This document shows positions 25,288-42,468 of a DNA stretch of 64,000 nt, one piece after another. Both the position numbers and the translations under genes were made by a program. The stretch's first letter is position 1. Every line of letters begins with the position of its first letter. The notes beneath the pieces are model-generated. The model did not search any database. It was not told the DNA's origin and worked only from the letters and a program-made list of their open reading frames with translations. The DNA is from an uncultured Brevibacillus sp. GTDB lineage: Bacteria > Bacillota > Bacilli > Brevibacillales > Brevibacillaceae. The DNA lies in NCBI GenBank assembly GCA_946402065.1, contig CAMIVR010000006.1, positions 1 through 64,000 of the forward strand. Direction: 5' to 3'.

Positions 25288-25318
25288 AAAAGACGCCAGC
25301 GTTAACCAGCGTCCGACA
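25288..25318 (-). terminator. Terminator of the csiD-gab-importer operon
   Basis: On the minus strand GACGC...GCGTC (25313-25309 with 25296-25292), with the loop TGGTTAACGCTG, is followed by TTTTTTAGTC. It lies 22 nt after the last permease stop and closes the eight-gene unit. Confidence 0.75.
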
Positions 25319-25339: not shown

Positions 25340-26110
25340 CTATTTTGCATTTCTCCCGGCCTGCGTAATCCCCGGCGCCAACAGAAAGATCGCAGCCGTT
25401 ACGACAATCAGCAGTGATGAAACCACCGCAATCGTCGGGTCAACCTGCGTACGCATGTTTTCCCACATGACGATCGGCAGTGTTTTCGTTTTGGCTCCGG
25501 CGATGAATATGCTGACAACGACTTCATCCAGCGAGGTAATGAAGGCGAACAAGGCGCTGGCGACAACGGACGTCCGAATCAAGGGCAGCGTCACTTTAAA
25601 GAACGCGCCGAGATGATTGGAGCCAAGGCTCAGGGCAGCCAGCTCGAGATTTTTGTCGATTCCCTTCAAACTGGCCAAAACCGTCACAAAGACGATCGGA
25701 ATAGCCAATATGGAATGGGCCAGGACGAGTCCAATCAGCGTATTGGTCAGCTTGAACCCGGCAAACGAATGGTACATGGCGATTCCGACGACAACTACCG
25801 GGATAATCATCGGGGCCACCATGGCATTCATGAAGATTTTTTTCCCGGGAAACTCCAGCTTGTTCAGAGCCAGCGCCGCCATAATCCCCAGTGCGGTGGA
25901 CACGATTGCCGTAAACAGCGCAACCGTGAGACTGCGGCCAAGCCCTACGGTCCACTGGTCATTCGTCAGAAAGTTCGCATACCACTTGGTCGAGTAGGAT
26001 TCAGGCGGAAAATTGAAAGCGACCTCCCCGCTGAACGACAAGGGAATCATCACCAGTATCGGGGCGATCATCAATATCAGCATGACAGCAACAAACAGGC
26101 GCAGCCACAT
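25340..26110 (-). CDS. Polyamine/omega-amino acid ABC importer permease (PotC-like), copy 1
   Basis: Inner-membrane permease, 256 aa, six predicted helices. The EAA-loop LELAALSLGSNHLGAFFKVT is near residues 163-182, and FITSLDEVVVSIFIAG near 203 is typical of PotC. Its ATG directly abuts the TAA of the PotB-like gene. It is the last gene of the unit started by csiD. A close paralogue (36813-37592) has the same length and layout. Confidence 0.92.
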   Translation of the reverse strand: MWLRLFVAVMLILMIAPILVMIPLSFSGEVAFNFPPESYSTKWYANFLTNDQWTVGLGRSLTVALFTAIVSTALGIMAALALNKLEFPGKKIFMNAMVAPMIIPVVVVGIAMYHSFAGFKLTNTLIGLVLAHSILAIPIVFVTVLASLKGIDKNLELAALSLGSNHLGAFFKVTLPLIRTSVVASALFAFITSLDEVVVSIFIAGAKTKTLPIVMWENMRTQVDPTIAVVSSLLIVVTAAIFLLAPGITQAGRNAK

Positions 26111-27010
26111 TTAATTGTCCCCCTTCAGCATCGGAGATAGGCGGGAGAGCGAATACGCCACCCCCAGCAGGATAAAGGTGGTTACGAGCAGCAGCAGAGA
26201 CAGTGCCGCTGCCAGATTCCAGTTCAAGGTCATCTGGATGTTTTCCTGAATCAGCTTGGAAATCATCGTGTCCTGCTGCCCGCCCAGCAGTGCCGGAGTA
26301 ATAAAATACCCCAATCCCAGGACAAACACGATCAGGGAACCGGACATCACACCGGGCAAGGAGAGCGGCACAAACACGTGAAACAGCGCCTGCCGCGGTC
26401 TTGCGCCCAGCCCCATTGCCGCTTGCATCAAACGGCGGTCGATCCCTTCCATGACTGCATACAGACTCAGGATCATGTAGGGCAGCAGTATGTGGGTCAT
26501 CCCGATGGTCACTCCGATTGAATTGTAGAGCAGCTTGAGCGGTTCGGCTGCCAAGCCGATTGCCTGCAGGAATTTATTGATGATGCCGTGATCTTGCAAA
26601 ATAATCGTCCATGAAAAGGTACGGACCAGCAGGCTGATCCACAACGTAATCATGATCGTGCCCATGATCACTTTTTTCCACTTCACTGAATGCATCACAA
26701 CCAGTAAATAAGCAATGGGATATGCCAGTACAAGTGTAGCCACCGTGACGATAAACGACGTCTTTAGCGTAATCCACAGCACCTGCAAATAGAGTGTATT
26801 CGTTAGCACCTCAGTGACGTACTTCAAGGTAAAGCCGTTTTTATCGTACACGCTTAACGCCAGTACACTTGCCAGCGAATAGTACAGCAGTACCAGCGTG
26901 TAGAGCAGCGGAATCAGCAGCAGCAGCCACTTTAACCAGGAAATGTTTACGGCCCGGGAGACAGAGGGCACGCGCTGCAATGCCACTTCCTCTGTCTTCA
27001 ATTCATGCAT
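26111..27010 (-). CDS. Polyamine/omega-amino acid ABC importer permease (PotB-like), copy 1
   Basis: Inner-membrane permease, 299 aa. A charged N-terminal tail (about 25 residues) precedes the first helix. The EAA-loop region is LMQAAMGLGARPRQALFHVF near 195-214, and it keeps the family block LPGVMSGSLIVFVLGLGYFI. It pairs with the PotC-like protein to form the channel. It begins 20 nt after the binding-protein gene. Confidence 0.92.
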   Translation of the reverse strand: MHELKTEEVALQRVPSVSRAVNISWLKWLLLLIPLLYTLVLLYYSLASVLALSVYDKNGFTLKYVTEVLTNTLYLQVLWITLKTSFIVTVATLVLAYPIAYLLVVMHSVKWKKVIMGTIMITLWISLLVRTFSWTIILQDHGIINKFLQAIGLAAEPLKLLYNSIGVTIGMTHILLPYMILSLYAVMEGIDRRLMQAAMGLGARPRQALFHVFVPLSLPGVMSGSLIVFVLGLGYFITPALLGGQQDTMISKLIQENIQMTLNWNLAAALSLLLLVTTFILLGVAYSLSRLSPMLKGDN

Positions 27011-27030
27011 ATGTCTCCCTCCTCATGCTC

Positions 27031-28116
27031 CTATTTCAGCAGCCAGGTGTTGAATTTCTCATTGACCTGGTCGAAATTGTCAGCCCAGTATTGAATGTTA
27101 ATCAACACTTGTGATTTTTTGCTTTCGTCCGTTTGACCCAGACGCTGGACGACTTCCGCAGGCAGCAGGGGAATCGCCTTCGAATTGGTCGGAGCGTAAT
27201 CGATCAGCTTGGAGTACTCCGCTTGCGGCTGTGGCTTGGAGACGTACGCGATGAACTTTTGCGCCAGTTCCTTGTTCGGTGCGCCTTTCGGAATGACCCA
27301 TGAGGTCGACATCCCCAATGCCTGGTTAAATTCGTTGTCGATCTTGGCCCCCTGAGCGCTGAGAGCAGAGACGCGGCCGTTCCAGGCAGCAGCGACGGCG
27401 ACTTCCTTGGTCGAGAGCAATTGCGGCGGCTGCGCTCCGGCATCCCACCATACTTTGATGTCTTTCTTGATCTTGTCCAGGCTTTTCAAGGCGCGATCGA
27501 CATCGAGCGGATACAGCTTGTCAGGCTCGACTCCGTCGGCGAGCAGGGCCGATTCCAGCGTGCCCATCGGGTTTTTATAGAGGGAGCGAGGTCCGGGGAA
27601 CTTTTGCGTATCCCAGAAATCTGCCCACGTCTTCGGATGGTTGTCCTTGCCAAACAGCTCGGTATTATAGGCAATATTCGTAAAATACAGCTCCTGGCCG
27701 ATCGAATAGTCCGTTACCAGCTCCGGATAGACGCCGTCCTTGTCGATGATGCTGTAATCGAGCTTTTCCAGCAGTCCTTCCTTTGCCAGCCGCAGTGCGA
27801 CATCGCTGTCAGAGTTGACGACATCCCACTCGGTCGTGCCGCTGACCACCATCGCCTTCAGCTTGCCGACATCGGTCGGCGAGACGACGATTACTTTGAC
27901 GTTGTTTTCCTTTTCAAACGGCTCGTACTGCGATTTCTTCGCCGCATCAGACGACGCGCCGCCCCAGTCGACGACGACAAGCTCTTTTGAAGCGGTGGCT
28001 GAGCCGCCGCCCGTATCTCCTCCCGCAGTCTGCGCCGACTGCTCTCCCGAACCGCACGCCGCAAGCGTCGCTCCTACTGCCAGCGTAAGCGCTGCCAATT
28101 TCACCTTTTGTTTCAT
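27031..28116 (-). CDS. Polyamine/omega-amino acid binding lipoprotein (PotD-like), copy 1
   Basis: Extracellular binding lipoprotein of the SBP_bac_8/PotD type, 361 aa. The signal peptide ends LAAC (Cys21). Mature blocks are ELVVVDWGGASSDAAKKS near 46, KPKTWADFW-type LFGKDNHPKTWADFWDTQKF near 140, and DKIKKDIKVWWDAGAQPPQL near 200. The last is shared almost word for word with the copy-2 protein at 38512-39618. Gene context with gabT, gabD and csiD points to 5-aminovalerate, GABA or a diamine as ligand, not spermidine; that is inference. Confidence 0.9.
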   Translation of the reverse strand: MKQKVKLAALTLAVGATLAACGSGEQSAQTAGGDTGGGSATASKELVVVDWGGASSDAAKKSQYEPFEKENNVKVIVVSPTDVGKLKAMVVSGTTEWDVVNSDSDVALRLAKEGLLEKLDYSIIDKDGVYPELVTDYSIGQELYFTNIAYNTELFGKDNHPKTWADFWDTQKFPGPRSLYKNPMGTLESALLADGVEPDKLYPLDVDRALKSLDKIKKDIKVWWDAGAQPPQLLSTKEVAVAAAWNGRVSALSAQGAKIDNEFNQALGMSTSWVIPKGAPNKELAQKFIAYVSKPQPQAEYSKLIDYAPTNSKAIPLLPAEVVQRLGQTDESKKSQVLINIQYWADNFDQVNEKFNTWLLK

Positions 28117-28183
28117 TAGATCGTCCCCCTTATCGTTTTTGCTTTCGTTCAGGATTTATGTGAAATGCTCATTTGATGCGTGC

Positions 28184-29269
28184 TTACGTTTCTGCCGGAA
28201 CAAGCGTGGCGTCCTTGCTGTTCCAGCCGACACAAATCTCCTCCCCGACGGACAGCATCTCTGTGTGGCGCGTTGACGCCTTGATGGTCATTTCTTCTCC
28301 GTACGACGTTTCAGCTTTTACCTTGACAGAGTCACCTACATAAATTTTTTCGCGTACAATCACGTGGAGGATGTTTTCATAGGCTCCAGCCTCATCAGTC
28401 AACTGAACATTCTCCGGCCGTACGGCAATGTATACGTCCTTGCTGCTTAACGACTGCTCGGCAAGCGCATAGAAGCTGCGGCTGTTATCGCCAGCCAGCT
28501 TGACGACCAGCTTTTCGCCTTCAGTTGCGGTAATCTGTCCGACCAGCAGGTTAATCTCGCCGATAAACTCTGCGACGAACTTGTTGCGCGGCTTTTGATA
28601 GATTTCCTCCGGTGAAGAAATCTGCTCGATCCTGCCCCGGTTCATCACGCAGACACGGTCAGACATGACCAGTGCCTCTTCCTGATCATGAGTGACACTG
28701 ATCGTCGTAATGCCGAGCTTTTCCTGAATGTGCTTGATTTCCAGCTGCATTTTTTCGCGCAAATTTTTATCCAGCGCTCCCAGCGGCTCGTCCAATAAGA
28801 GCAGCGGCGGATTGAACACGATCGCTCGCGCCAGCGCGACCCGCTGCTGCTGCCCACCGCTCAACTGGCTCGGATAGCGGTCGGCAAAGTCAGCGAGGTG
28901 GACCAATTGCAGAATGTTTCGCACTCTTTCCCTAATCTGATCTTTATCAATCTTCCGAATTTTTAGCGGGTAGGCAATGTTGTCGGCGACGGTCATATGC
29001 GGGAAGAGCGCATAGTTTTGAAACAACATGCCTATGTCGCGCTCATACGGCTTCTTCTTCGTAATGTCCTGATTGTTTAGACGAATCGACCCGTCGCTGA
29101 GCTCCTCAAAACCGGCGATCAGCTTCAGCAAAGAGGTTTTGCCGGAGCCGGACGGGCCTAAAATGGTTAAAAACTCACCTTTCTTTACCTCAAGGTTGAC
29201 ACTGTCAACGGCTTTTACCCGCTTGTAATACTTCGTCGCTGCTTGCAAGGCGAGATGAGTTTCATTCAT
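28184..29269 (-). CDS. Polyamine/omega-amino acid ABC importer ATPase (PotA-like), copy 1
   Basis: ATPase of the importer, 361 aa. Walker A is GPSGSGKTS near residue 38, the signature LSGGQQQRVALARAI near 134, and Walker B LLLLDEPLGALD. A C-terminal TOBE_2 regulatory domain spans about 275-350. It follows gabT by 3 nt, so the catabolic and transport genes are one transcript. It precedes its binding protein, an order repeated in the copy-2 operon. Confidence 0.92.
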   Translation of the reverse strand: MNETHLALQAATKYYKRVKAVDSVNLEVKKGEFLTILGPSGSGKTSLLKLIAGFEELSDGSIRLNNQDITKKKPYERDIGMLFQNYALFPHMTVADNIAYPLKIRKIDKDQIRERVRNILQLVHLADFADRYPSQLSGGQQQRVALARAIVFNPPLLLLDEPLGALDKNLREKMQLEIKHIQEKLGITTISVTHDQEEALVMSDRVCVMNRGRIEQISSPEEIYQKPRNKFVAEFIGEINLLVGQITATEGEKLVVKLAGDNSRSFYALAEQSLSSKDVYIAVRPENVQLTDEAGAYENILHVIVREKIYVGDSVKVKAETSYGEEMTIKASTRHTEMLSVGEEICVGWNSKDATLVPAET

Positions 29270-29272
29270 CTG

Positions 29273-30625
29273 CTACACTCCTTCTCCTTGCTTTTGCACA
29301 CTGGCGATGACCCCTTCGAGGATATCCAGACCTTTGTCCAGCTGCTCATCCGTAATGACGAGCGGCGGCAAGAAGCGCAGGATATTACCGTTCAACCCGG
29401 CACTCAACCCGATCAAACCGTGCTTCCAGCACAGCTGGACAATCTCTGCCGTCGCCTGCTGGGCCGGCTCCTTCGTCCGGCGGTCCGTCACGAGCTCCAT
29501 GGCAACCATCGCTCCGAGTCCGCGTACATCGCCGATGAGGGGATACTTCAGCTGCATTTCTGCAAAACGGCTCAGCATGCGCTCCCCAATGACCTGCGCT
29601 CGCCAGACGAGGTTCTCTTCTGCGATCACGTCAAGCACAGCCATCCCGGCAACGCAAGACATCGGACTGCCGGCGAACGTACCGCCTAACTGTCCCGCAG
29701 CGGAAGCGTCCATCAATTCGGCCCGGCCTGTAACAGCACTGAGCGGCATCCCGGCGGCGATCGACTTCGACGACACCATGATATCGGCGGCTACGCCAAA
29801 GTGCTCCATCGCAAACAGCTTGCCGGTGCGGGCAAAACCGGTCTGAATCTCATCGGCAATCATCAGGATGCCGTATTTGTCGCACAATTTTCTGATCCCC
29901 TGGACAAAATTGGCTGACGGCACGACGAACCCGCCTTCTCCCTGCACCGGTTCCATAATAATCGCTGCGACATCCTCCGCCGCCACTTCCCCGAGGAAAA
30001 ACTCTTCAATCCGACGCAGCACCTGCGCATCGACAGCATCCGGGGACATCTCCTCGGCGTCGCGGTAGTAATACGGATAAGGAATTTTGTACGTGTCCGG
30101 CGCAAAAGGACCAAAGCGGAATTTATACGGCTTGACCTTGCTCGTCAGCGACATCGTCATCAAGGTGCGGCCATGATAGCCGCGGGTAAAGGACAGGATC
30201 GACTTCCGGCCTGTAGCCGCACGGGCGATTTTGACGGCATTTTCGACCGCTTCGGCACCGCTGTTGACAAACATCGTCTTTTTGGCAAAATCTCCCGGCG
30301 TGGCTGCATTCAAGCGCTCCGCCAAACTGACGTAGCTGTCGTAGGGCAGGACATGAAAACAGGTATGGATAAACTGCGCGGCTTGCTCCTGCAGGGCCTT
30401 GACCACTTTGGGATGGCAGTGGCCGATGTTTTGAATTCCGATTCCGCCGGCAAAATCGATGTAGGTGTTGCCGTCTACATCGGTAATCAGCGCTCCTTGG
30501 GCCGCTTGTACGTAAAGCGGAGTGATGTTATACGGGCCGACCGGGACTGCCTGATGTCTGCGTGCATGCAGCGCTTGCGACTTTGTCCCCGGAATCGTCG
30601 CAGTGTTTTGTTGCGAAGTGCTCAT
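29273..30625 (-). CDS. gabT: 4-aminobutyrate / 5-aminovalerate transaminase
   Basis: Class III PLP-dependent aminotransferase, 450 aa, moving the omega-amino group of GABA or 5-aminovalerate to 2-oxoglutarate. Family blocks are visible: DFAGGIGIQNIGHCHPKVV near 56, the PLP phosphate loop NSGAEAVENAVKIAR near 121, YHGRT near 150, EPVQGEGG near 222, DEIQTGFARTG near 253 and the Schiff-base Lys in SSKSIAAGMP near 283. It sits between gabD (43 nt upstream) and the importer ATPase. CsiD and LhgO in the same unit argue that 5-aminovalerate from lysine or cadaverine is a natural substrate. Confidence 0.93.
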   Translation of the reverse strand: MSTSQQNTATIPGTKSQALHARRHQAVPVGPYNITPLYVQAAQGALITDVDGNTYIDFAGGIGIQNIGHCHPKVVKALQEQAAQFIHTCFHVLPYDSYVSLAERLNAATPGDFAKKTMFVNSGAEAVENAVKIARAATGRKSILSFTRGYHGRTLMTMSLTSKVKPYKFRFGPFAPDTYKIPYPYYYRDAEEMSPDAVDAQVLRRIEEFFLGEVAAEDVAAIIMEPVQGEGGFVVPSANFVQGIRKLCDKYGILMIADEIQTGFARTGKLFAMEHFGVAADIMVSSKSIAAGMPLSAVTGRAELMDASAAGQLGGTFAGSPMSCVAGMAVLDVIAEENLVWRAQVIGERMLSRFAEMQLKYPLIGDVRGLGAMVAMELVTDRRTKEPAQQATAEIVQLCWKHGLIGLSAGLNGNILRFLPPLVITDEQLDKGLDILEGVIASVQKQGEGV

Positions 30626-30668: not shown

Positions 30669-32135
30669 TTACGCTTTGATCGTAATCGTCTTGACCGAAG
30701 TGAAAAACTCCATCGCAGCTCTTCCCTGCTCGCGTGAATGGGAGCTGGATTCCTTCATCCCGCCAAACGGCGCTTGCAGCTCCACGCCTGAGCTTTCCCC
30801 GTTTACCCGGATCATCCCGGCGTCCATTTCCTGGATGTAGTTCATCATTTCATCCAGCCGATTGGTAAAAATCGACGCGCTCAAGCCGTAGCGCACATCG
30901 TTGGCTACTTCCAGCGCTTGCTGGAGATTGTCCACTTTCAGCAAAGCCAGGACCGGACCGAAAATCTCGTCCTGGGCAATCGACATGCCAGGCTCGACGT
31001 CTTCAAACAAGGTCGGGGCGATGTAGTAGCCTTCCGCCAATGCCCCCTCTGTCAGCGCTTCCCCGCCAAGCACCAGTGTCGCGCCTTCTGCCTTGCCCCG
31101 CTCAATGGCGGCAAGCACGCTGTGAAACTGGTTTTTCGAGGCGACCGGACCCATGTACGAGTCGGCTTCCAGCCCATTCGCGACGCGGATGCTGCGGATT
31201 TTTTCGATCACTTTTTCCCGGAACGCGGCGTACACCTCCTTCACTACGATAGCGCGACTGGTCGCTGTGCATTTTTGCCCCGACGACTTCATGCTGCCGC
31301 TCACCGTCAGCTCCGCAGCCAGCTCGAGATCTGCGCTCTCCGTGACGATCACCGGGTTTTTGCCGCCCATCTCCAGCTGGTACTTGCCGCCGCGAGCCAG
31401 CACCTTGGCTGCGATGATGCTGCCGACGGCATTGGAGCCGGTGAAGCTGACCGCTTTTACGTCGGGATGCTCACTGAGCACGTTGCCGATGACCGAGCCT
31501 GAGCCGCTGACGAGATTGACCACACCCGGCGGGAATCCGGCATCGATAAAGCACTTGATGACCTGAATCGCCGTCACGGTCGTTTCCAGGGCCGGCTTGA
31601 TCACGACGGTGTTGCCGTAGACGAGCGCTGGCGCCATTTTCCATACGGGAATCGCGACCGGGAAATTCCACGGCGTGATCAAACCGACGACGCCGAGCGG
31701 CACGCGGGACGTAAACAGCAGCGCCCCTTCGTCACTCGAGGGAATGACCTCGCCTACCGCACGCAAGCCTTCAGATGCGTAGTAGCGCAAGATCGCTACC
31801 GCCCGCGCCGTTTCCCCCTTGGCCTCGACCAGCGTTTTGCCCATTTCCCGGGTCATCGTCTCCGCGATTTGATCCAATCGCTGTTCGAGAATGTCGGCTG
31901 TCTTGCGCAGATATTCGCCGCGGGTCGGGCCGGCGAGTTTCCGCCAGCCCTCCGCAGCCGCTTTTGCCGCAGCTACAGCTTGATCCACGTCCTCCTTTGT
32001 CGACAGCGGTACATACCCGACTACCTCCCGTTTGTCAGCAGGGTTGAGGCTTGCTTCGACATCGCCTGAGCCCGCGTCCAGCCAACTGCCGTTTATCACG
32101 TTTTGGTAGGTGTTGTTTGCTGTTTTCATAGACAT
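30669..32135 (-). CDS. gabD: Succinate/glutarate-semialdehyde dehydrogenase
   Basis: NAD(P)-dependent aldehyde dehydrogenase, 488 aa. Visible: the cofactor motif FTGSNAVGS near 230, the general-base Glu in LEMGGKNP near 256, the nucleophile Cys in [11 protein letters not shown] near 290, and [11 protein letters not shown] near 390. ATG 32135 is chosen because AAGGGGGG lies just before it; the open frame extends 15 codons further without a site. It oxidises the semialdehyde made by GabT. It is more like the ketoglutarate-semialdehyde subgroup of Firmicutes than E. coli GabD, so exact chain length is open. Confidence 0.88.
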
Positions 32136-32193: not shown

Positions 32194-33420
32194 TCAAGAT
32201 ATAGCGTACACCCTGCGAAGCCTGGCGAGCTCTACCGTGCGCTCCGCCACCGTTCGGCCAATCATGATCGATGCCGTAGCTGCCGGCGAAGGAGCATTGC
32301 ACACGTGAATGCTGTTTTTCCCTTCGATGATATGGAAGTCATCGACCAGACTGCCGTCGGGCTTCAACGCTTGTGCCCGCACTCCGGCTGCTGCCGGGAC
32401 GAGATCGTCGGCCTGGATTTCCGGGATCAACTGCTGCAGGCTTTTGACAAAGGCCGCCTTGCTGAATGAACGGACCATCTCTTCCATGCCCTCTTTCCAG
32501 TAGGTGCCCGCCAGCTTCCAAAAGCCGGGGTAAGTCATAATTTCGGAAAAATCCTTCAGGTTGAAATCGGTTTTGCGATACCCTTCCCGTTTCAAGCTGA
32601 GCACGGCATTCGGTCCAGCCTCGACATGCCCGCCGATCATCCGGGTAAAATGCACCCCTAAAAACGGGAAGGCCGGATTCGGTACGGGATAGATCAGATG
32701 CTTGACGAGATAGCGCTTCTCCGGCTTGAGCTCGTAGTATTCGCCGCGAAAGGGCACGATCTTCATATCCGTCTGCACACCGCTGTTCCTGGCGACCCGG
32801 TCGCTGTGCAGTCCTGAGCAATTGATCAGAAAGCGGGCGTGAAACGAACCGCGATTCGTTTCAATCGTCACCCCGCCGCCTGTTTCCGCGACCTTTTCCA
32901 CGCGCGTGCTGAGCTGCAAATCTCCACCGTGTCGGGCAATGATCGCGGCAAATGTCTCACATACCTGCTTGTAGTTGACGATTCCGGCCATCGGCACGCG
33001 GATGGCGGCCAGACCGTTGACGTGCGGTTCGATTTCTTTTAATTCGCCTGCGCTGATCTTGCTAATGCCCAACCCGTTTGCCAGACCGCGCTCCAGCAAA
33101 TTATCCAGTAGCGGCAGCTCTTCCGGTTTGGTGGCGGTGATCACCTTGCCGCAAATCTCATGCTCAATGCCGTGCTCGCGGCAAAACTCCACCATCGCCT
33201 GGCTGCCTTCCCGGGCGAACTTCGCCTTGAAGCTGCCCGGTTTGTAGTAAATGCCGGAATGAATGACACCGCTGTTGTGACCCGTCTGGTGTTTTGCCCA
33301 GCTGTCTTCCTTCTCCAAAACCAGTATGGTCGCCTGTGGATTTCGCTGGCACAAGGCCATTCCTGTGGCGAGTCCGACAATCCCTCCGCCCACAATGGCA
33401 AAATCATACATCGCTGCCAC
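32194..33420 (-). CDS. lhgO: L-2-hydroxyglutarate dehydrogenase/oxidase
   Basis: FAD-dependent enzyme of the DAO superfamily, 408 aa, converting L-2-hydroxyglutarate to 2-oxoglutarate and feeding electrons to the membrane quinone pool. The dinucleotide motif [16 protein letters not shown] is at about 8-23, [12 protein letters not shown] near 48-59, and the C-terminal [14 protein letters not shown] near 375. It lies 14 nt after csiD and 58 nt before gabD. That is the same partner order as E. coli csiD-lhgO-gabD-gabT, and it makes the assignment secure. Confidence 0.94.
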
Positions 33421-33434
33421 TCCTCTCTCGCGCT

Positions 33435-34373
33435 CTACCGCTTGGCAAAGACACCACGTTGTCTCATCAACTCACGGTGCAGCTCCGGATTTTTTTCGAA
33501 AGCTGCGCGGCCATGCAGCCAAAACGTATTGTTCAGCATGACCAAATCGCCGATCGGCAGCGACAGCGCATGCGTAGCCGGGCTGTTTTCCATCGATTCG
33601 GACAGCTCTTTCAAGTAAATCGCCTGTTCAATCGTCTCCGGCTGGACGAATTGGTCGATAAAGCAGATGCAGGGCGCGTTGTTTTGGTCAAAGAATGTCT
33701 CGCGGTACACGACCTGCTCGACATTTTTGCTGGCAGGCGCTTTGTACAGGAATTTATACGAAGCCAACGGGTGCTTGCAGAACTTCTCCAGCTCTTCCCA
33801 ATCATCCAGATGCAAGAGACGCGACTCCCCGCCGACGGCATTTTTCTCATCCATTTTCATCATCAGCAGCCAGTCTGTCGGCTCATCGACGAACGTTCCA
33901 TCCGTGTGCAGGGTAAACAGACGGTAGGCTTGACGCAGGTACGAGTCGCTGTTGTCCGTATCCTTTACCGTAAACCGCGCGTAGAACGTGCCTGACATCG
34001 CATCGTGGTTCGGCAGCCCGACGAGATGGGTCAACGCCGTGGCGAATTTGACGTAATCTTCCGTATCGCTGGTCGTTCCCTGCACCCCAATGGTGAAGCC
34101 GCCTGTTTGCCGGTCGTGCAGGATGCCCCGGATCGCCTCGACGAACGATTGGCCAAACAAGTCGCGCATTTCCGCGGCCAGAATCAGCCGCATGAACGGT
34201 ACGTACTGCAGCCGCTGCGAGCCTTCGCCCTGCAGTGACGTGAAGAATTGACCGAGCAGCTCGCTGTTTAGCTCGATGTGATACAAGCGTTTGTGGTGCG
34301 GATGCGGTTTGATTTCGTAGCCTGCTTTCTTTTGAACAAAGCTCATGTGCGCTGCTTCTGTAACGATACTCAT
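33435..34373 (-). CDS. csiD: Glutarate 2-hydroxylase (CsiD/GlaH)
   Basis: Fe(II)/2-oxoglutarate dioxygenase, 312 aa, hydroxylating glutarate to L-2-hydroxyglutarate. Blocks shared with E. coli CsiD include DAMSGTFYARFTVKDTDNSD and SYLRQAYR, the metal motif LHTDGTFVDE (His and Asp of HxD near 155-157), LLHLDDWEELEKF, FIDQFVQPE, and the distal metal His and 2-oxoglutarate Arg in FWLHGRAAF near 290. ATG 34373 follows GGAGGG. It opens the operon behind a 230-nt leader. No CsiR-type repressor is adjacent. Confidence 0.95.
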   Translation of the reverse strand: MSIVTEAAHMSFVQKKAGYEIKPHPHHKRLYHIELNSELLGQFFTSLQGEGSQRLQYVPFMRLILAAEMRDLFGQSFVEAIRGILHDRQTGGFTIGVQGTTSDTEDYVKFATALTHLVGLPNHDAMSGTFYARFTVKDTDNSDSYLRQAYRLFTLHTDGTFVDEPTDWLLMMKMDEKNAVGGESRLLHLDDWEELEKFCKHPLASYKFLYKAPASKNVEQVVYRETFFDQNNAPCICFIDQFVQPETIEQAIYLKELSESMENSPATHALSLPIGDLVMLNNTFWLHGRAAFEKNPELHRELMRQRGVFAKR

Positions 34374-34423
34374 GAATAACCCTCCATCGTCATTGATTGT
34401 CATTTTTCCCGCTTCGCATAAAT

Positions 34424-34477
34424 AAAAAAGCCAGCTATATACACCCATGAGGATTCATGAGCGTCTATAACTGGCTT
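34424..34477 (-). terminator. Leader terminator upstream of csiD
   Basis: Minus strand: AAGCCAGTTATA pairs with TATAGCTGGCTT through a second stem (ACGCTCATGA with TCATGGGTGT-type G-U pairs), about 22 continuous pairs, followed by TTTTTTATTT. It lies about 130 nt downstream of the promoter and 50 nt before the csiD start, so transcription of the whole unit must pass it. Confidence 0.82.
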
Positions 34478-34612
34478 CGATCTACTTTTCCTCTCCGATC
34501 TCGCGGAGTTCAGAAGATTCGTCAGTGATTTTATTTACTTGAAGACTGAGATTGGTCATTCACCGCTCTCGAAAGGGCTAATCTTTCTGGGAGTGAATGT
34601 ATCGATAGAACC

Positions 34613-34641
34613 ATACTATATTGTTTTTAACTTTCTGTCAA
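34613..34641 (-). promoter_or_regulatory. Sigma-A promoter of the csiD operon
   Basis: Minus strand: -35 TTGACA (34641-34636), 17-nt spacer, -10 TAGTAT (34618-34613; TATAGT overlaps it). The 8-bp inverted copies GAGTGAAT (34591-34598) and ATTCACTC (34643-34650) bracket the promoter, suggesting a regulator bound on both sides. Confidence 0.75.
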
Positions 34642-35385: not shown

Positions 35386-35800
35386 TTAAGGAATTCTAAG
35401 AGAGTTAGTATCACTAATTTCCCAATTTGCTTCTGAAGATGTTGTTGTGACCGAATACGTTATCGAGCCCGATACTACGTTCATTCCTTGACCCCATGTA
35501 ATGGCCGCTGTACCAGTTGTTGACTTGTTATTAATGTTATAAGTATGCGTGTACTTTGCCCCAAATTTTGCTGACGTTCCAAATTTCTTAGGCGTAACTT
35601 TCACAATGTCGTAATGTGTTGAATAGGAAATTGGTCGAGAATCAAATATGTTAAATAGAACCGTACCCTGTGATGAATAGTCAGCATTCTTCAGTTTGCT
35701 ATTATACTCGTCATCAATAGCATAATCATAGTATTCAAATTTACTTGGATCAAACATAATTCCAAGAACATCATAAGAAGCTGGTTGGTCCTCGACACCG
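35386..35800 (-). pseudogene. 3' part of an AT-rich gene, cut by the transposase fragment
   Basis: The frame reads VEDQPASYDVLGIMFDPSKF, then YYDYAIDDEYNSKL and on to ISDTNSLRIP. It stays open upstream past the internal ATG at 35757 and meets transposase sequence in another frame at about 35800. The beta-rich C-terminal half (YTHTYNINNKSTTGTAAITW) resembles secreted or surface proteins but no family is certain. The 5' half, including any signal peptide, is missing. Translation from 35757 would give 123 aa. Confidence 0.65.
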
Positions 35801-36343
35801 TTTAAACATAATAAAGTCCGGGTTTTCTACTGTTTCGCATCTCGGCCCATCGTGCCTTGCGCCAATCGTTTCCGTGACTTGAAGTGGTTGCCCGTTTTGG
35901 GCCTGCAGAGCGACATGCAGCTTAATCGCAACCCGTTCTCCATGAAAGGGAGCCAAAGGCGTACGGGTTTTCCCCACGGTTATGGTAGTGGAGTCAATCA
36001 GCAGCAATTCTTTGGGAAAAGCAAGTTTTCGCCGGGTTTCCCGGTTGCATTTACGAACAAGCCATTTAAAAAGTTCTTTAAACACCTCAAACGGTACATC
36101 TGCCGCCTTCCCTGAAAAACAGGAATAGTGAACTTCAAGTAAGCCATTGCTGGCAGCACGATCCACGCCAGGACGATAACCCGACCATTCTTCACTAGCT
36201 GCGGCACACCAATACTTCAATAAATGATATACGGTAAATTTTCGAGCCGTATCTACATATCCGACGGCTTGGACAGCGAGCGCAACTTCTTCGGGCGTTA
36301 GCACGGATTGAAGGATGAATGGAATCGTGTTAGACTTTTTCAC
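35771..36343 (-). pseudogene. Truncated IS4-family transposase (IS4Bsu1/IS5377-like)
   Basis: The N-terminal half of a DDE transposase. The block LLIDSTTITVGKTRTPLA carries the first catalytic Asp. FHGERVAIKLHV and ETIGARHDGP follow as in Bacillus/Geobacillus IS4 relatives. Identity ends after ENPDFIM, where VEDRA is expected. The frame then runs 10 codons into foreign DNA and stops, so the second Asp and catalytic Glu are gone. The element cannot move. The GTG start at 36343 is intact; upstream 36344-36450 should hold the left terminal region. Confidence 0.85.
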
Positions 36344-36812: not shown

Positions 36813-37592
36813 TCAACTCTCCTGTTTCACCTGTGCATTGCGCGACGATACCCAAGACTGCGTGAAAAACAGGACGATCGTCAGGCCGATGAGAATCGCC
36901 GAAACAGCCGCGATCGTCGGATTTACCTGAGTGCGGAGATTTTCCCACATCACGATCGGCAGCGTCTTCGTCCGCGATCCTGCCAGGAACAGCGAGACGA
37001 CCACCTCATCGAGCGACGTAATGAAGGCAAACAATGCACCAGACAGCACGGCTGGGCGGATCAACGGCAGCGTCACTTTGAAAAACGTACCGATCGGAGT
37101 GGAGCCCAGTCCCAGCGAAGCGAGCTCGAGATTGCGATCCATCCCTTGCAGCCCCGCCGTGACGGTCACAAACACGATCGGAATGGCCAGGATCGTATGG
37201 GCCATCACCAGACCGAGCAGGCTGTTGGTCAGCTTCATCGGTGCGAAGGAATGATACAGGGCGATCGCGACGACGATGACCGGAATCACCATCGGTGCGA
37301 CCATGAGCGACATGAACGCCTTTTTGCCCCAGAACTGCAGGCGGTTCATCGCCACAGCCGCCATGATTCCCAGAATGGTTGCGACGATGGCTGTCAGGAC
37401 GGCAACGGTCAGACTGCGAACCAGTCCTTCCACCCACTCTTGATTGCTAAAAAAGCTGTCGTACCATTTCAGTGAGTACCCCGGCGGAGGAAATTCAAAA
37501 AAGCCGATCGATGTAAAGGATAGCGGGATCACGACCAAAATGGGAGCAATCAAGGCAAAGAGAATGAGACCAACCACGATTTTCAGCCACAT
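36813..37592 (-). CDS. Polyamine-type ABC importer permease (PotC-like), copy 2
   Basis: A 259-aa permease closely similar to the copy-1 PotC-like protein along its length (for example WYDSFFSNQEWVEGL and FITSLDEVVVSLFLAG). The EAA loop is LELASLGLGSTPIGTFFKVT. It begins 1 nt after the PotB-like stop and ends just before a strong terminator. The two operons arose by duplication and now have different promoters. Confidence 0.92.
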   Translation of the reverse strand: MWLKIVVGLILFALIAPILVVIPLSFTSIGFFEFPPPGYSLKWYDSFFSNQEWVEGLVRSLTVAVLTAIVATILGIMAAVAMNRLQFWGKKAFMSLMVAPMVIPVIVVAIALYHSFAPMKLTNSLLGLVMAHTILAIPIVFVTVTAGLQGMDRNLELASLGLGSTPIGTFFKVTLPLIRPAVLSGALFAFITSLDEVVVSLFLAGSRTKTLPIVMWENLRTQVNPTIAAVSAILIGLTIVLFFTQSWVSSRNAQVKQES

Positions 37593-37593
37593 C

Positions 37594-38496
37594 CTATTTG
37601 ACCTCCTTCAGGACCGGGCTGTTCTTTGTCAGCAGGAAAGCCAGGAAGAGCAGCAGCATCGTCACGACAAAGAGTACGAGGGCAATGGCGGAAGCCAGAT
37701 TCCAGTTAAGGGTAGTGCTGATGTTGTCTTGAATCAGCATGGAGATCATCATGTCGTTTGCGCCGCCAAGCAAGGCCGGGGTAATAAAGTAGCCGATCCC
37801 CATGACGAAGACGAGCAGCGAGCCAGACATCACGCCCGGCAGAGACAGCGGGAAAAAGATTTGCGCGAATGCTTTCCACGGCCGCGCTCCGAGGCCCTCT
37901 GCCGCTTGCAGCAGCCGGCGATCAATCCCCTCCATGACAGAGTACAGACTGAGAACCATGTACGGCAGCAGGACATGCGTCATCCCGATAATGACCCCGG
38001 TCGTGTTGTACAGAAGCGGAAGCGGTTTGTCGATCAAGCCGATGCCGAGCAAGATCTTGTTGATTACACCCTGTTCCTGCAGCAAGACGGTCCAGGCAAA
38101 CGTCCGCACGAGCAGGCTGATCCAAAACGGGATGAGCACGGCGGCGAAGATCGCTTTTTTCCACCCGGCCGATTCGATCTTGACCAGCAGATACGCCACC
38201 GGATACGCGAAAATCAATACGAAAACGGTCACGAGAAACGCGATCTTCAGCGTCAGCCAGAGCACTTCCAAATAAATCGGCGTGGAGAAAATCCGCTCCA
38301 GGTATTCCAGGGTGAAGCCGTTTTTGCCAAAGATGCTCAGTTTAAACAGGCCGAGCATGGAAAAGACCAATAAAAAGAGGATGTACGCTAACGGCAAAAA
38401 CAAGAGTAGCCATTGTAATCCTTTGATGCGCATGATCTGATAGGCGGGGGAAACCCGCTTAGCAGGTCCCCCGGCTGCAACTCTTGCTTCCATCAT
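37594..38496 (-). CDS. Polyamine-type ABC importer permease (PotB-like), copy 2
   Basis: A 300-aa permease. The EAA loop LLQAAEGLGARPWKAFAQIF lies near 194-213, and LPGVMSGSLLVFVMGIGYFI is shared with copy 1. A 30-residue cytoplasmic tail precedes the first helix. It follows the binding-protein gene by 15 nt. Confidence 0.92.
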   Translation of the reverse strand: MMEARVAAGGPAKRVSPAYQIMRIKGLQWLLLFLPLAYILFLLVFSMLGLFKLSIFGKNGFTLEYLERIFSTPIYLEVLWLTLKIAFLVTVFVLIFAYPVAYLLVKIESAGWKKAIFAAVLIPFWISLLVRTFAWTVLLQEQGVINKILLGIGLIDKPLPLLYNTTGVIIGMTHVLLPYMVLSLYSVMEGIDRRLLQAAEGLGARPWKAFAQIFFPLSLPGVMSGSLLVFVMGIGYFITPALLGGANDMMISMLIQDNISTTLNWNLASAIALVLFVVTMLLLFLAFLLTKNSPVLKEVK

Positions 38497-38511
38497 TGTT
38501 TACCTCCCCGA

Positions 38512-39618
38512 TTATTTTTTCAGCAGCCACTGTTGAAAACGCTCGTTTACCGAATCGAAATTGTCTACCCACCAGGCAGCATCGATGTAAATTTGCTTTT
38601 TCAGGTTTTCCGGCGATTGCCCCAGACGGTCTTTCGCATCCTGTGGCAAGAGATCGATTGCCTTCTGGTTGGCAGGCGCATAGTCAATGTTCGTCGAGAA
38701 GGCTACCTGCTGTTCCGGTGCAATGTCAAAATCGATGAATTTCATCGCCAAATCTTTGTTTTTCGAGCCTTTCGGAATGACCCAGACGTTCGCTGCGACA
38801 AGCCCTTGGTTGTATTCCAAATCGACAGGTCCGCCCTGCGTCTTGGCATCGGTAATCCGGCCATTCCACGCTGCCGACAGCGGCACTTCACCTGTAGCCA
38901 GCAGTTGCGGAGGCTGGGCGCCGGCGTTCCACCACACTTTTACATCGCCCTTGATTTTGTCCAGGCTCTTGAAGGCGCGGTCGACATCGAGCGGATACAG
39001 CTCTTCCGGTTTGACCCCATCGGCCAAGAGCGCTGCTTCCAGTGTCCAGGTCGGCGATTTGTAGAAGGAACGCGCGCCCGGGTATGTTTTCGTATCCCAG
39101 AATTCGGCCCAGCTCTTCGGATGGTTGTCTGTGGAGAATGCTTTCGTGTTGTAGCCGATAACCGTTGAGAAGAGACTTGATGCGATGCCGTAGTCAAACA
39201 CCAGGTTGTCCGGAATGCCATCTTTGTGAATCACGTTGTAATCGAGCTTCTCCAGCATGCCTTCCCGGCCGGCGCGGATAGCGAAGTCGGTATCGACGCT
39301 GACGACATCCCATTCTACGCTGCCAGTCTCAACCATCGCTTTAAACTTGCCGTAGTCGGTCGGTGACACAACCGTGATTTTGACGCCGTATTTTTTCTCA
39401 AACGGTTCAAAGCTGGCCTTTTTATGAGCATCTGTATAGGCGCCGCCCCAGTCGACGACGACGAGCTCTTTGCCGGCATCGCCGGAAGCTGCCGGCGCTT
39501 CGCTGCTGCCGTTCGTTTCGTTGTTATTGGCTGGTGCCGATGTTTCTCCGCCGCCGCACGCCGTCAGGCTGACAGCCAGTAAAAAGGAAAGTGACAGAGT
39601 GGATAGTTTTTTGATCAT
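38512..39618 (-). CDS. Polyamine-type binding lipoprotein (PotD-like), copy 2
   Basis: A 368-aa binding lipoprotein; the signal peptide ends LTAC (Cys21), then an Asn/Ser/Ala linker. Blocks in common with copy 1 are ELVVVDWGGAYTDAHKKASF, DKIKGDVKVWWNAGAQPPQL and the C-terminal VNERFQQWLLKK. ATG 39618 follows GGGGAGAAG; the longer open frame has no site. The two proteins differ in the segment around EGMLEKLDYNVIHKDGIPDN, so ligand preference may have diverged. Being under sigma-54 control ties it to a specific inducer. Confidence 0.9.
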   Translation of the reverse strand: MIKKLSTLSLSFLLAVSLTACGGGETSAPANNNETNGSSEAPAASGDAGKELVVVDWGGAYTDAHKKASFEPFEKKYGVKITVVSPTDYGKFKAMVETGSVEWDVVSVDTDFAIRAGREGMLEKLDYNVIHKDGIPDNLVFDYGIASSLFSTVIGYNTKAFSTDNHPKSWAEFWDTKTYPGARSFYKSPTWTLEAALLADGVKPEELYPLDVDRAFKSLDKIKGDVKVWWNAGAQPPQLLATGEVPLSAAWNGRITDAKTQGGPVDLEYNQGLVAANVWVIPKGSKNKDLAMKFIDFDIAPEQQVAFSTNIDYAPANQKAIDLLPQDAKDRLGQSPENLKKQIYIDAAWWVDNFDSVNERFQQWLLKK

Positions 39619-39697
39619 GGCGATTCTTCTCCCCTTAGCCTGTATATTCTGTTTGTTTCTGTCGATGCTCGGCCGGCTCAGACTCATCTCGCCTTGC

Positions 39698-40792
39698 TTA
39701 CGCTTCATCCTGCAGCAGCGTTGCTTCCTGGCCATTCCAGCCCAACACCATCTCTCGCTCATAGGTGATCAGATTAGATTGGTAGGCAGGTACCTTCACC
39801 AGGATTTCCTGCTCTGTAGCCGTTTTCATTTTCAGCTTGATCGCTTCTCCGACGTAGATCGTCTGCAGCAATTTCGCCTTCAGCGTGTTTTGGAATCGCG
39901 TTTCATCCGAGGCAATCTGAATATTCTCCGGCCGAATGGCAATGAGTGCCTGTCTGTTCTGCAGATCACGATGGAAGTCATCGGTTTCGACGCTTGCCAC
40001 CGCTTGGTCGAGCAGCTTGATGTTCGTTTGATTGCCTTCAAAACCGGCAATCTGACACGGAATCAGGTTGATTTCGCCGATGAACTCGGCGACGAAGCGG
40101 TTTTTCGGCTTCTTGTACAACTGCTCAGGTGTGTCAATTTGCTCGATCCGGCCTTGATTCATGACACAGATGCGGTCTGACATCGTCAGGGCTTCCTCCT
40201 GGTCATGCGTCACACTGACTGTCGTAATGCCGACCTGTTCCTGAATCTGCTTGATTTCCAGCTGCATCTGCTGGCGCAAGTTTTTGTCCAAAGCGCCAAG
40301 CGGCTCGTCCAGCAAGAGAATCGGCGGATTGAAGACGATCGCCCGGGCCAGTGCGACGCGCTGCTGTTGTCCACCGCTCAACTGCTTCGGGTAGCGCGAA
40401 CCGTATTCACCGAGATGGACGAGCCTGAGAATGTTTTCGACCAGCTTCTTTGTCTCGTCTTTGGGAACCTTGCGCAGACGAAGCGGATAGGCGATGTTGT
40501 CGAACACGGTCATATGCGGAAACAGGGCGTAATTTTGAAACAGCATCCCGATGTTTCGCTCGTACGCTTTCTTTTTCGTGATGTCCTGATCATTTAAGCG
40601 AATGCTACCCTCGCTAAGCTCCTCAAAACCGGCGATCAGCTTCAGCAGCGAAGTTTTGCCGGAACCGCTTGGTCCCAATATGGTGAGAAACTCCCCCTTG
40701 TTGACGTCCATGCTGACATTGTCAACCGCCCGAAATTTTTTATAGTACTTGGTAGCGTTAACAATTGACAAGCTATCCCCTAACGCCATCAT
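39698..40792 (-). CDS. Polyamine-type ABC importer ATPase (PotA-like), copy 2
   Basis: A 364-aa ATPase with Walker A GPSGSGKTS, the signature LSGGQQQRVALARAI, Walker B ILLLDEPLGALD and a C-terminal TOBE domain. The first 240 residues are nearly the same as copy 1; the TOBE part is diverged. It is the first gene of the second operon, about 115 nt downstream of the -24/-12 promoter, with GGGGGG just before the two ATG codons. Confidence 0.92.
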   Translation of the reverse strand: MMALGDSLSIVNATKYYKKFRAVDNVSMDVNKGEFLTILGPSGSGKTSLLKLIAGFEELSEGSIRLNDQDITKKKAYERNIGMLFQNYALFPHMTVFDNIAYPLRLRKVPKDETKKLVENILRLVHLGEYGSRYPKQLSGGQQQRVALARAIVFNPPILLLDEPLGALDKNLRQQMQLEIKQIQEQVGITTVSVTHDQEEALTMSDRICVMNQGRIEQIDTPEQLYKKPKNRFVAEFIGEINLIPCQIAGFEGNQTNIKLLDQAVASVETDDFHRDLQNRQALIAIRPENIQIASDETRFQNTLKAKLLQTIYVGEAIKLKMKTATEQEILVKVPAYQSNLITYEREMVLGWNGQEATLLQDEA

Positions 40793-40907
40793 TTACCCCC
40801 CTGTTCTTTTTCAAAATTCTCTGCAGGTACTTTTTCTGTGCGTCTGACGGAGAGGAGTAGACTTCATCAGCCGTTGTCACCTTGATTTCGTCTCTACTCC
40901 GTCATCA

Positions 40908-40924
40908 AGCAAGTGTTGTGCCAA
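40908..40924 (-). promoter_or_regulatory. Sigma-54 promoter of the second importer operon
   Basis: Minus strand TTGGCACAACACTTGCT: GG at -24 and GC at -12 exactly 10 nt apart, fitting TGGCAC-N5-TTGC in full. It faces the PotA-like gene and is fed by the activator encoded next door. Confidence 0.9.
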
Positions 40925-41033
40925 CCCGATAACACACGCCCCTGCACAGCCAGACATGCACAACTATTCTTTTTTAAATACTGTTTCGCCCGTCGCTCCT
41001 CGGTTTTACCCTTGAAACATGGTGATAATTGAA

Positions 41034-41051
41034 AATATTCACTCTTGAATA
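41034..41051 (-). promoter_or_regulatory. Putative upstream activator site of the second importer operon
   Basis: AATATTCACTC overlaps the inverted repeat TATTC-N6-GAATA (41036-41051); a further TTATTCAG follows at 41057. The site is 110-130 nt upstream of the sigma-54 promoter, a usual distance for an enhancer. The half-site GTGAATATT recurs at 42535 and, inverted, at the csiD promoter. Confidence 0.55.
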
Positions 41052-41100
41052 GAAATTATTCAGTTCTGACCATGATTGTCTCGCTATGCAAACCACCTTG

Positions 41101-42468
41101 CTAAAACGTGCTTTTGTATTTCTTCAGCTTGCGCACGACCGTTGGTTGGCTGATGCCGAGATACTTCGCCATTTCAATCGTATTGCGGCATTTTTCGTAC
41201 GCTTTTTTCATCAGATTCGCTTCGTATTCGTCGAGCAGCTCCGGCAGCGTCTTCGCCTTGTCGCCGCCGAATTCCGATACCCCTTCAAGCAAAATATGTT
41301 TAGGCAAATGCTCTTTGCGAATAACCGGATCGTCGGTGATCAGGATGAGCCGTTCGATCATGTTTTCCAGCTCCCTGACATTGCCCGGCCAGCTGTAGTT
41401 GAGCAAGCAATTCAGCGCCTCCTGGTGAAGCTCGGCCTGCTTATTGTACAGATGGTTGTAGCGCATCATAAAGTCGAGAATCATGCTGAGCAAGTCCTCC
41501 TGCCGTTCACGCAGCGGCGGGATATGCAGTGGAATGACCGACAGGCGGAAATACAGGTCCTGGCGGAATTCACCGGCGGCCACTTTGCCCTCCAATTCCA
41601 CATTGGTCGCAGCAATCAGCCGAAAATCAACGCTGCGCGGCTTGTTTTCGCCTACGCGGAAAAACTTTTTCTCCTGAATCAGGGTCAGCAGCTTCACTTG
41701 CAAATTCAGCGGCAGCTCGCCGATCTCATCCAGAAACAACGTCCCGTCCTGTGCCGCTTCCACCAATCCCGTGCTGCCTTTGGGATTGGCTCCGGTAAAG
41801 GCACCGGGCGCATAGCCGAACAGCTCCGACTCCAGCAAGGCATCCGGGATGCTGCCGCAGTTAATTTCGACGAGCGCCCCGGTCCGCTTGCTCTGGTGGT
41901 GAATGTATTTGGCGATGACGTTTTTGCCCACGCCGGATTCGCCCGTCAGCAGGATCGTCGTATTGAACTTGGAGACCTTTTCGGCAGAATCGAGAATTTT
42001 GATGATTTTGGGGCTGGTCGCGATAATCCCCTCGCGCTTTTTCTTGTTGATGCTCATTTCCAGCATTTCTTTGCGGATTTTTTGGATCTCATGCTCCATC
42101 TGGGTGACGTATTCGCGGAGATTGACCAATTCCGTGACATCGTGGGCATAGGTCACGACGAATTTAATCTGCTGCCGGTCATCGTAAATAATTTTGCCGG
42201 TCACCAAAAATTTATGGCCTAGCTTCGTTTCCTGGATCAAGGTCTGACTCTTTTTCGTCGCGAGAATTTTTCGTACGACGGAAGGGTAAAAGACGCGTTC
42301 ACGCTCCAGCTCCATCACCGTCCGCCCGAGAATTTCTTCCCGCTTCATGCCGTAAAAATGCTCGATGACTTTGTTCGTGTACAGGATAACCCCGCTCGCA
42401 TCCGTAATCAGTACATCGCTGTGAAGATGGTCGACGATTTCTTCCCAATCCCATAATGGCGTAGACAT
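41101..42468 (-). CDS. Sigma-54-dependent activator with PAS domain
   Basis: Bacterial enhancer-binding protein of 455 aa. An N-terminal PAS sensor spans about 12-115 ([20 protein letters not shown]). A short coiled coil (120-142) leads to the AAA+ domain with Walker A GESGVGKN (176-183), the sigma-54 contact loop GAFTGA (222-227), Walker [11 protein letters not shown] near 242, and the R-finger region [18 protein letters not shown]. The C-terminal Fis-type helix-turn-helix is [23 protein letters not shown] 42468 follows AAAGGAAG. It lies between the two sigma-54 promoters it presumably serves. Confidence 0.95.

Follow-up and report, generated by a model that had tools for sequence, protein, structure and literature searches.

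The operon that begins with csiD in an uncultured Brevibacillus sp. raises the question of why a leader of about 233 nt separates its promoter from its first gene, and what would allow RNA polymerase to pass through it. The window analyzed here is a stretch of 64,000 nucleotides, and on its minus strand the leader precedes eight codirectional genes, csiD, lhgO, gabD, gabT, and a four-gene ABC transporter, that end at a terminator. The original prediction of a structured leader of about 230 nt with a terminator, transcribed from a sigma-A promoter and controlling eight genes, agrees with these boundaries. The features are as follows, in order of transcription.

34613–34641, minus strand: sigma-A-type promoter TTGACA-17-TAGTAT (sequence match)
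34557–34599, minus strand: 5′ hairpin, with helix P1 CATTCAC/GTGAATG, an asymmetric internal loop, helix P2 GAAAG/CTTTC, and loop AUUAGCC
34470–34527, minus strand: antiterminator, with helices AT1 ACUG/CAGU, AT2 AUCUUC/GUAGAU, and AT3 CUCCG/CGGAG (from a 77-sequence alignment)
34493–34508, minus strand: apical hairpin of AT3, CUCCG-CGAGAU-CGGAG, all five pairs of which covary on both sides
34420–34475, minus strand: intrinsic terminator of 22 pairs and a U-run (stem-loop 34475–34430, U-run to 34420)
33435–34373, minus strand: csiD (glaH), glutarate 2-hydroxylase (PF08943, 423 bits; NF002814, 454 bits, over cut-off)
32194–33411, minus strand: lhgO, L-2-hydroxyglutarate oxidase (NF008726, 606 bits, over cut-off)
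30669–32135, minus strand: gabD-like aldehyde dehydrogenase (PF00171; top NCBIfam model alpha-ketoglutaric semialdehyde dehydrogenase, over cut-off)
29273–30625, minus strand: gabT-like class III aminotransferase (PF00202; TIGR00700, over cut-off)
25340–29269, minus strand: PotABCD-like ABC transporter of four genes, named by resemblance to a paralogous set at 36813–40792 (ATPase 28184–29269, binding protein 27031–28116, permeases 26111–27010 and 25340–26110)
25291–25314, minus strand: operon-end terminator

The ATG start codon of csiD lies at 34373 behind a GGAGG ribosome-binding site at 34385–34381, which corrects the earlier placement. By context, the gabD-like protein is a glutarate semialdehyde dehydrogenase and the gabT-like protein a 5-aminovalerate aminotransferase. 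The paralogous transporter set, whose ATPase carries PF00005 and TOBE_2, is part of a second PotABCD-like system with a PAS/sigma-54 activator gene upstream (36813–42468); an apparent transposase fragment (35771–36343) and small orphan ORFs lie between csiD and this system.

In terms of folding, the intrinsic terminator sits between the promoter and the first gene, as in an attenuator, and has the 22 pairs originally described: a stem of 20 pairs about one 1×1 mismatch and two A-U pairs, with a calculated stability of −28 to −31 kcal/mol. Compared with shuffled sequences, folding of the complete leader is better by 4.4 sd; the 127 nt 5′ of the terminator, taken alone, show no gain over shuffles (z 0.17). 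The folding energy therefore belongs to the terminator, and it is covariation that has to carry the case for any further structure. The lack of excess stability in the region before the terminator is also what speaks for an ordinary terminator of upstream transcription, surrounded by chance folding and nothing regulatory. Such a terminator is at odds with the promoter that separates the element from the gene upstream, as well as with the two results that follow, covariation of an antiterminator and conservation before csiD, by which this explanation as stated is refuted; we regard it as highly improbable.

The CTCCG/CGGAG hairpin noted previously is real (34508–34493), although it is only the tip of a longer antiterminator, 34527–34470, in which AT1, AT2, and AT3 stack into a coaxial-looking three-helix hairpin. 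In an alignment of 77 leaders, fitted to a model that holds AT2 and AT3 and so favors both, standard pairs occupy 93.7% of the pair cells, and changes on both sides of a pair are found in 278 cells versus 79.5 in shuffles; when the partner strand is slid by 1–3 columns, pairing falls to 27–43%. AT1 is not among the model pairs, and its columns (1–5 with 81–85) are 93.5% paired, with AU/GC changes on both sides in the outer pairs. The comparative alignment of csiD leaders proposed at the outset thus yields covariation, and the effect is visible already in a ten-sequence MAFFT alignment. AT2 has one mismatch in the window. The terminator helix covaries as well, and its 5′ arm, GCCAGUU, doubles as the 3′ strand of AT1. 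Because AT1 takes the 5′ arm of the terminator, the antiterminator and the terminator are mutually exclusive, and this alternative use of the terminator arm is conserved. The comparative data strongly support assignment of the leader as a putative transcription attenuator.

The distribution of the leader was determined with two covariance models. Similar leaders precede csiD relatives in Brevibacillus fluminis, Ammoniphilus, several Aneurinibacillus, Alteribacillus, and genome G073, and Alteribacillus has a further copy before genes for an aldehyde dehydrogenase and an APC permease. Model R1, built from ten csiD leaders (alignment A2), recovered all three held-out Alteribacillus copies and also found new gene contexts. 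Model R2, built from 24 sequences and trained on glutarate-pathway and related leaders, matched at E ≤ 0.01 in 54 of 399 Bacilli genomes. Outside the training set, 36 of 44 matches precede genes of a coherent set: csiD (9), a CaiB-type CoA-transferase with glutaryl-CoA dehydrogenase, GcdH (19), gabT (3), GcdH (2), gabD (1), an APC permease (1), or DUF3870 (1); one more match stands before a TRAP transporter. In the same 399-genome sample, the leader is present before csiD in 16 of 16 clear-csiD genomes, so nonconservation in relatives, named at the outset as grounds for rejecting the leader, was not found; two extra csiD copies in G167 are without it. TTGACA lies 165–206 nt 5′ of the terminator in 10 of the 11 csiD leaders compared and, by eye, upstream of the Alteribacillus leaders too.

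A second copy of the leader is found in the Brevibacillus genome itself (G000:C43:17585–17685), before CaiB, GcdH, and DUF3870 genes. At this locus (L079, G000:C43:17100–21700), the leader copy is followed by a CaiB-type CoA-transferase, an acyl-CoA dehydrogenase, and DUF3870; the closest model of the transferase is succinate–glutarate CoA-transferase and the second-best model of the dehydrogenase is glutaryl-CoA dehydrogenase, both below the curated cut-off. Glutarate is a substrate of both csiD and the CoA-transferase.

Elements of this type were also seen in other surroundings. In seven Aneurinibacillus loci (L074, L075, L078, L115, L118, L138, and L141), the element precedes genes for a CxxC protein of about 50 residues (CISCG..LASWE) and an M3 oligoendopeptidase. 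At L072:396, L117:4259, L114:10615, and L025:6937, it precedes tiny cysteine-rich peptides, e.g., MCKKTGCGKCSNCPLANTKKEK. Weak R1 matches in L082, L084, L085, and L086 and R2 matches in L146, L149, L151, and L154 resemble plain terminators and were rejected. A search of the 4227 families of Rfam 15 gave no match at the gathering score and nothing credible at a relaxed threshold, in agreement with the earlier reading that hallmarks of T-box leaders and of lysine or glycine riboswitches are not visible. As judged from these sequence searches, the leader is widespread and uncatalogued, being absent from Rfam 15. The open-access literature, a scope that leaves most subscription journals outside, yielded no account of a riboswitch for csiD or glutarate or of antitermination involving glutarate, and such absence is no proof.

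The 5′ hairpin, an addition to the original prediction, is a second conserved hairpin close to the 5′ end of the transcript. By eye, its architecture is shared by about 30 leaders. In a structural search, 21 of 72 leaders have a best match that exceeds shuffles at p ≤ 0.05, where about 4 would be expected; this strict search did not score the window leader itself, and MAFFT aligned the helices out of register. In six loci (L125, L126, L135, L140, L144, and L145), the hairpin is missing and the promoter abuts AT1, from which we take the core of the element to be AT1-AT2-AT3 and the terminator. A loop–loop kissing interaction between the 5′ hairpin and AT3 fits the leader of L024; by eye, other leaders do not fit, and the interaction was rejected.

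What, then, would choose between the two structures? Ribosome stalling on a short leader ORF is one way, and the window does contain an ATG-led frame of 25 codons running into the hairpin (MTNLSLQVNKITDESSELREIGEEK), which is found in part in L108. However, frames of this kind are no commoner in the leaders (19 of 71) than in shuffles (21.8), those with a Shine–Dalgarno sequence are rarer (1 versus 5.05), and a frame would not fit into the several leaders whose core directly adjoins the promoter. With no excess of short ORFs over shuffles, leader-peptide control was rejected and is the least probable of the readings considered.

A second way is direct sensing by RNA, in which the leader alone binds glutarate or another pathway metabolite, the antiterminator hairpin is stabilized, the operon is turned on, and DUF3870 is merely co-regulated. 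A regulon with one metabolite in common, strong covariation, and a mutually exclusive architecture typical of expression platforms all fit a true riboswitch. Known aptamers differ from such leaders in having conserved unpaired nucleotides. Here, besides AT1 and the invariant GC before it (GCCAGU), only A76 is well conserved (90%) among unpaired positions, and the internal loops otherwise have low information content; this scarcity of conserved unpaired nucleotides is unlike a ligand-binding core, the core of the element often lacks the 5′ hairpin, and there is no Rfam match to a described family. The original alternative of riboswitch or attenuator is thereby narrowed: the attenuator stands on a conserved leader with covarying, exclusive structures, and the riboswitch is the less supported half, given the few conserved unpaired nucleotides and a protein family, DUF3870, that tracks the RNA. 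The suggested involvement of glutarate-pathway metabolites fits the regulon.

DUF3870 (PF12986) is a protein of about 105 residues; genes for it lie in about 40 of the loci examined and in 108 of the 399 Bacilli genomes. Of the 36 genomes that have a strong leader, 34 encode it, versus 74 of 363 others (Fisher p ∼2.5e-19, a value that includes phylogenetic dependence, as the genomes are not independent). In the case of the window operon, the DUF3870 gene is not adjacent but is located elsewhere in the genome. DUF3870 paralogs of other subfamilies, however, have an antiterminator/terminator leader directly downstream, followed by unrelated operons, which were named from reading the protein sequences: peptide ABC transporters (L163, in the same Brevibacillus genome, L165, L166, and L172), DppA-like peptidases (L170 and L171), a fumarylacetoacetase-type operon (L176), an M24 peptidase with a transporter (L164, also in this genome), and a branched-chain-type ABC transporter (L173). 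Model R2, trained without leaders of DUF3870 paralogs, matches just downstream of DUF3870 in L176 (44 bits) and L163 (36 bits), with weaker matches at the expected sites in L165, L168, L169, L171, and L181. Where DUF3870 and the gene after it are codirectional, a strong terminator stands between them in 9 of 16 cases, versus 9 of 100 other pairs (p 4e-5), and in a shuffle test antiterminator potential at those terminators reaches p < 0.05 in 3 of 12 versus 1 of 55 others, individually weak values. Nine DUF3870-adjacent hairpins have the same closed three-helix shape, with AT1 as GCUG/CAGC, ACUG/CAGU, or CAGC/GCUG.

Two further DUF3870 genes of the Brevibacillus genome, L163 (G000:C7) and L164 (G000:C100), are each followed by an antiterminator/terminator of this shape. 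An AUCC-type hairpin within the 5′ ends of the DUF3870 transcripts in L163, L165, and L172 resembles the 5′ hairpin seen before csiD and may be a further site for binding or autoregulation.

These associations bear directly on the rival explanations. For a riboswitch, same-shaped hairpins before peptide-transport and fumarylacetoacetase-type operons beside DUF3870 paralogs would require several unrelated ligands to be read by one scaffold. On the other side, profile search found no DUF3870 in three species of one genus (G221, G245, and G162), with no obvious substitute gene upstream of the leader, and these species (L134, L130, and L153, respectively) keep the leader, with most of its pairs, before a lone glutaryl-CoA dehydrogenase gene. 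The riboswitch stays a live rival because of this genus, and we consider it possible but rather unlikely. The same genus would also suit a different trans-acting antitermination factor, whether an RNA-binding protein, an RNA, or a tRNA, with DUF3870 linked for metabolic reasons only, and so would the DUF3870 genes in L167, L174, L177, and L178, which by eye have no adjoining leader. No other candidate gene recurs at the leader loci on inspection, there is no T-box match, and DUF3870 adjoins leaders across unrelated operons, all of which make such a factor improbable.

We favor DUF3870 acting together with a metabolite, on the grounds that the same RNA scaffold is used by operons for different substrates, whereas the DUF3870 proteins are not alike. 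RNA binding and antitermination by DUF3870, together with the identity of the coinducer, are what we infer from this pattern. We consider it somewhat more probable than not that DUF3870 proteins are antiterminators and that they stabilize the AT hairpins in the presence of a pathway metabolite, which in this case is probably glutarate. Without it, the growing transcript would fold the strong terminator and transcription would halt before csiD; the default state is predicted to be OFF, given that the terminator has by far the greater stability (−28 kcal/mol, versus −12 kcal/mol for the antiterminator), as expected for a catabolic operon, which must be induced. For expression, the upstream ACUG would pair with CAGU at the base of the terminator 5′ arm, closing AT1-AT2-AT3 and barring the terminator. 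DUF3870 would bind the AT hairpin in the presence of glutarate, probably the coinducer as the substrate that the csiD and CaiB-GcdH branches share, or of a neighboring metabolite, for example 5-aminovalerate or glutaryl-CoA. The 5′ hairpin, first to emerge, perhaps aids this binding, and the DUF3870-bound antiterminator would let RNA polymerase into the operon.

Several observations weigh against an antiterminator role for DUF3870: the genus that retains the leader without it, the four DUF3870 genes that lack an adjoining leader, and the fact that co-occurrence is also expected for an accessory enzyme of the pathway. Structural comparison lends no support to RNA binding, since neither sequence nor fold comparison with the PDB gave a significant match for DUF3870; its isoelectric points are about neutral, and it has no detectable homology to HutP. 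The sole paper found that names PF12986/DUF3870 describes a Bacteroides C-terminal domain (3kog; PMC4387736), to which the DUF3870 profile used here has no match. A wider reading, which we regard as evenly balanced, is that DUF3870 constitutes a new antiterminator family, responsive to metabolites and unrelated to HutP. Each paralog, of which some Bacilli have several in one genome, would then read the three-helix antiterminator ahead of the operon it controls, be it for glutarate, for peptide uptake, or for aromatic or branched-chain catabolism.

The leader combines a clear structure with a coherent regulon in Bacilli, that of glutarate and 5-aminovalerate in lower lysine degradation, and offers a testable function for DUF3870. 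If the proposal is true, a single family of small proteins accounts for attenuation at several catabolic and transport operons that are otherwise unrelated, and the DUF3870–leader pair is a candidate glutarate sensor. On the wider reading, DUF3870 genes could serve to predict many hidden regulons.

Among known systems, T-box leaders likewise join a 5′ stem-loop to an antiterminator/terminator in Bacilli, whereas csiD-type leaders give no Rfam T-box match, show no AGGGUGGNACCGCG bulge by eye, and precede catabolic genes. Transcriptional ON riboswitches and orphan candidates share the exclusive antiterminator/terminator, the metabolically coherent regulon, and the strong covariation; the leader here differs in its near absence of conserved unpaired nucleotides and in having no match in Rfam 15. 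RAT hairpins of the LicT/SacY (BglG) family overlap the 5′ arm of a terminator, and paralogous LicT/SacY systems use similar hairpins, both points of likeness to the leaders described here. The hairpin, however, is different, the protein is unrelated, and the DUF3870 system has no PTS domains; by eye, no RAT consensus and no paired ANTAR hexaloop hairpins (A1, G4) were found, the leader having one variable apical loop of 4–8 nt.

The hut operon of Bacillus subtilis, controlled by HutP, differs in its RNA, as the HutP site is composed of NAG repeats and the leader here is a three-helix hairpin. Homology of DUF3870 to HutP (PF09021), suspected by eye, was rejected at hhalign probabilities of 0.1–0.25%, permuted HutP included, and no HutP is among the matches listed by Foldseek. 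A divergent HutP-family protein of 138 residues, with 27% identity to the first canonical HutP in the alignment, is encoded in G046 (L186:1480–1893) with its own terminator-bearing leader downstream. Many DUF3870 paralogs, as candidate regulators, are encoded immediately ahead of the terminator region that precedes their operon, but this does not apply to the window operon; in the csiD case, unlike hut, the DUF3870 gene lies elsewhere in the genome. In both systems a pathway metabolite would be the inducer, as inferred for DUF3870 leaders, and the hutP-hutH arrangement of a small-protein gene, a terminator/antiterminator, and a catabolic operon is the same as that of DUF3870, leader, and operon.
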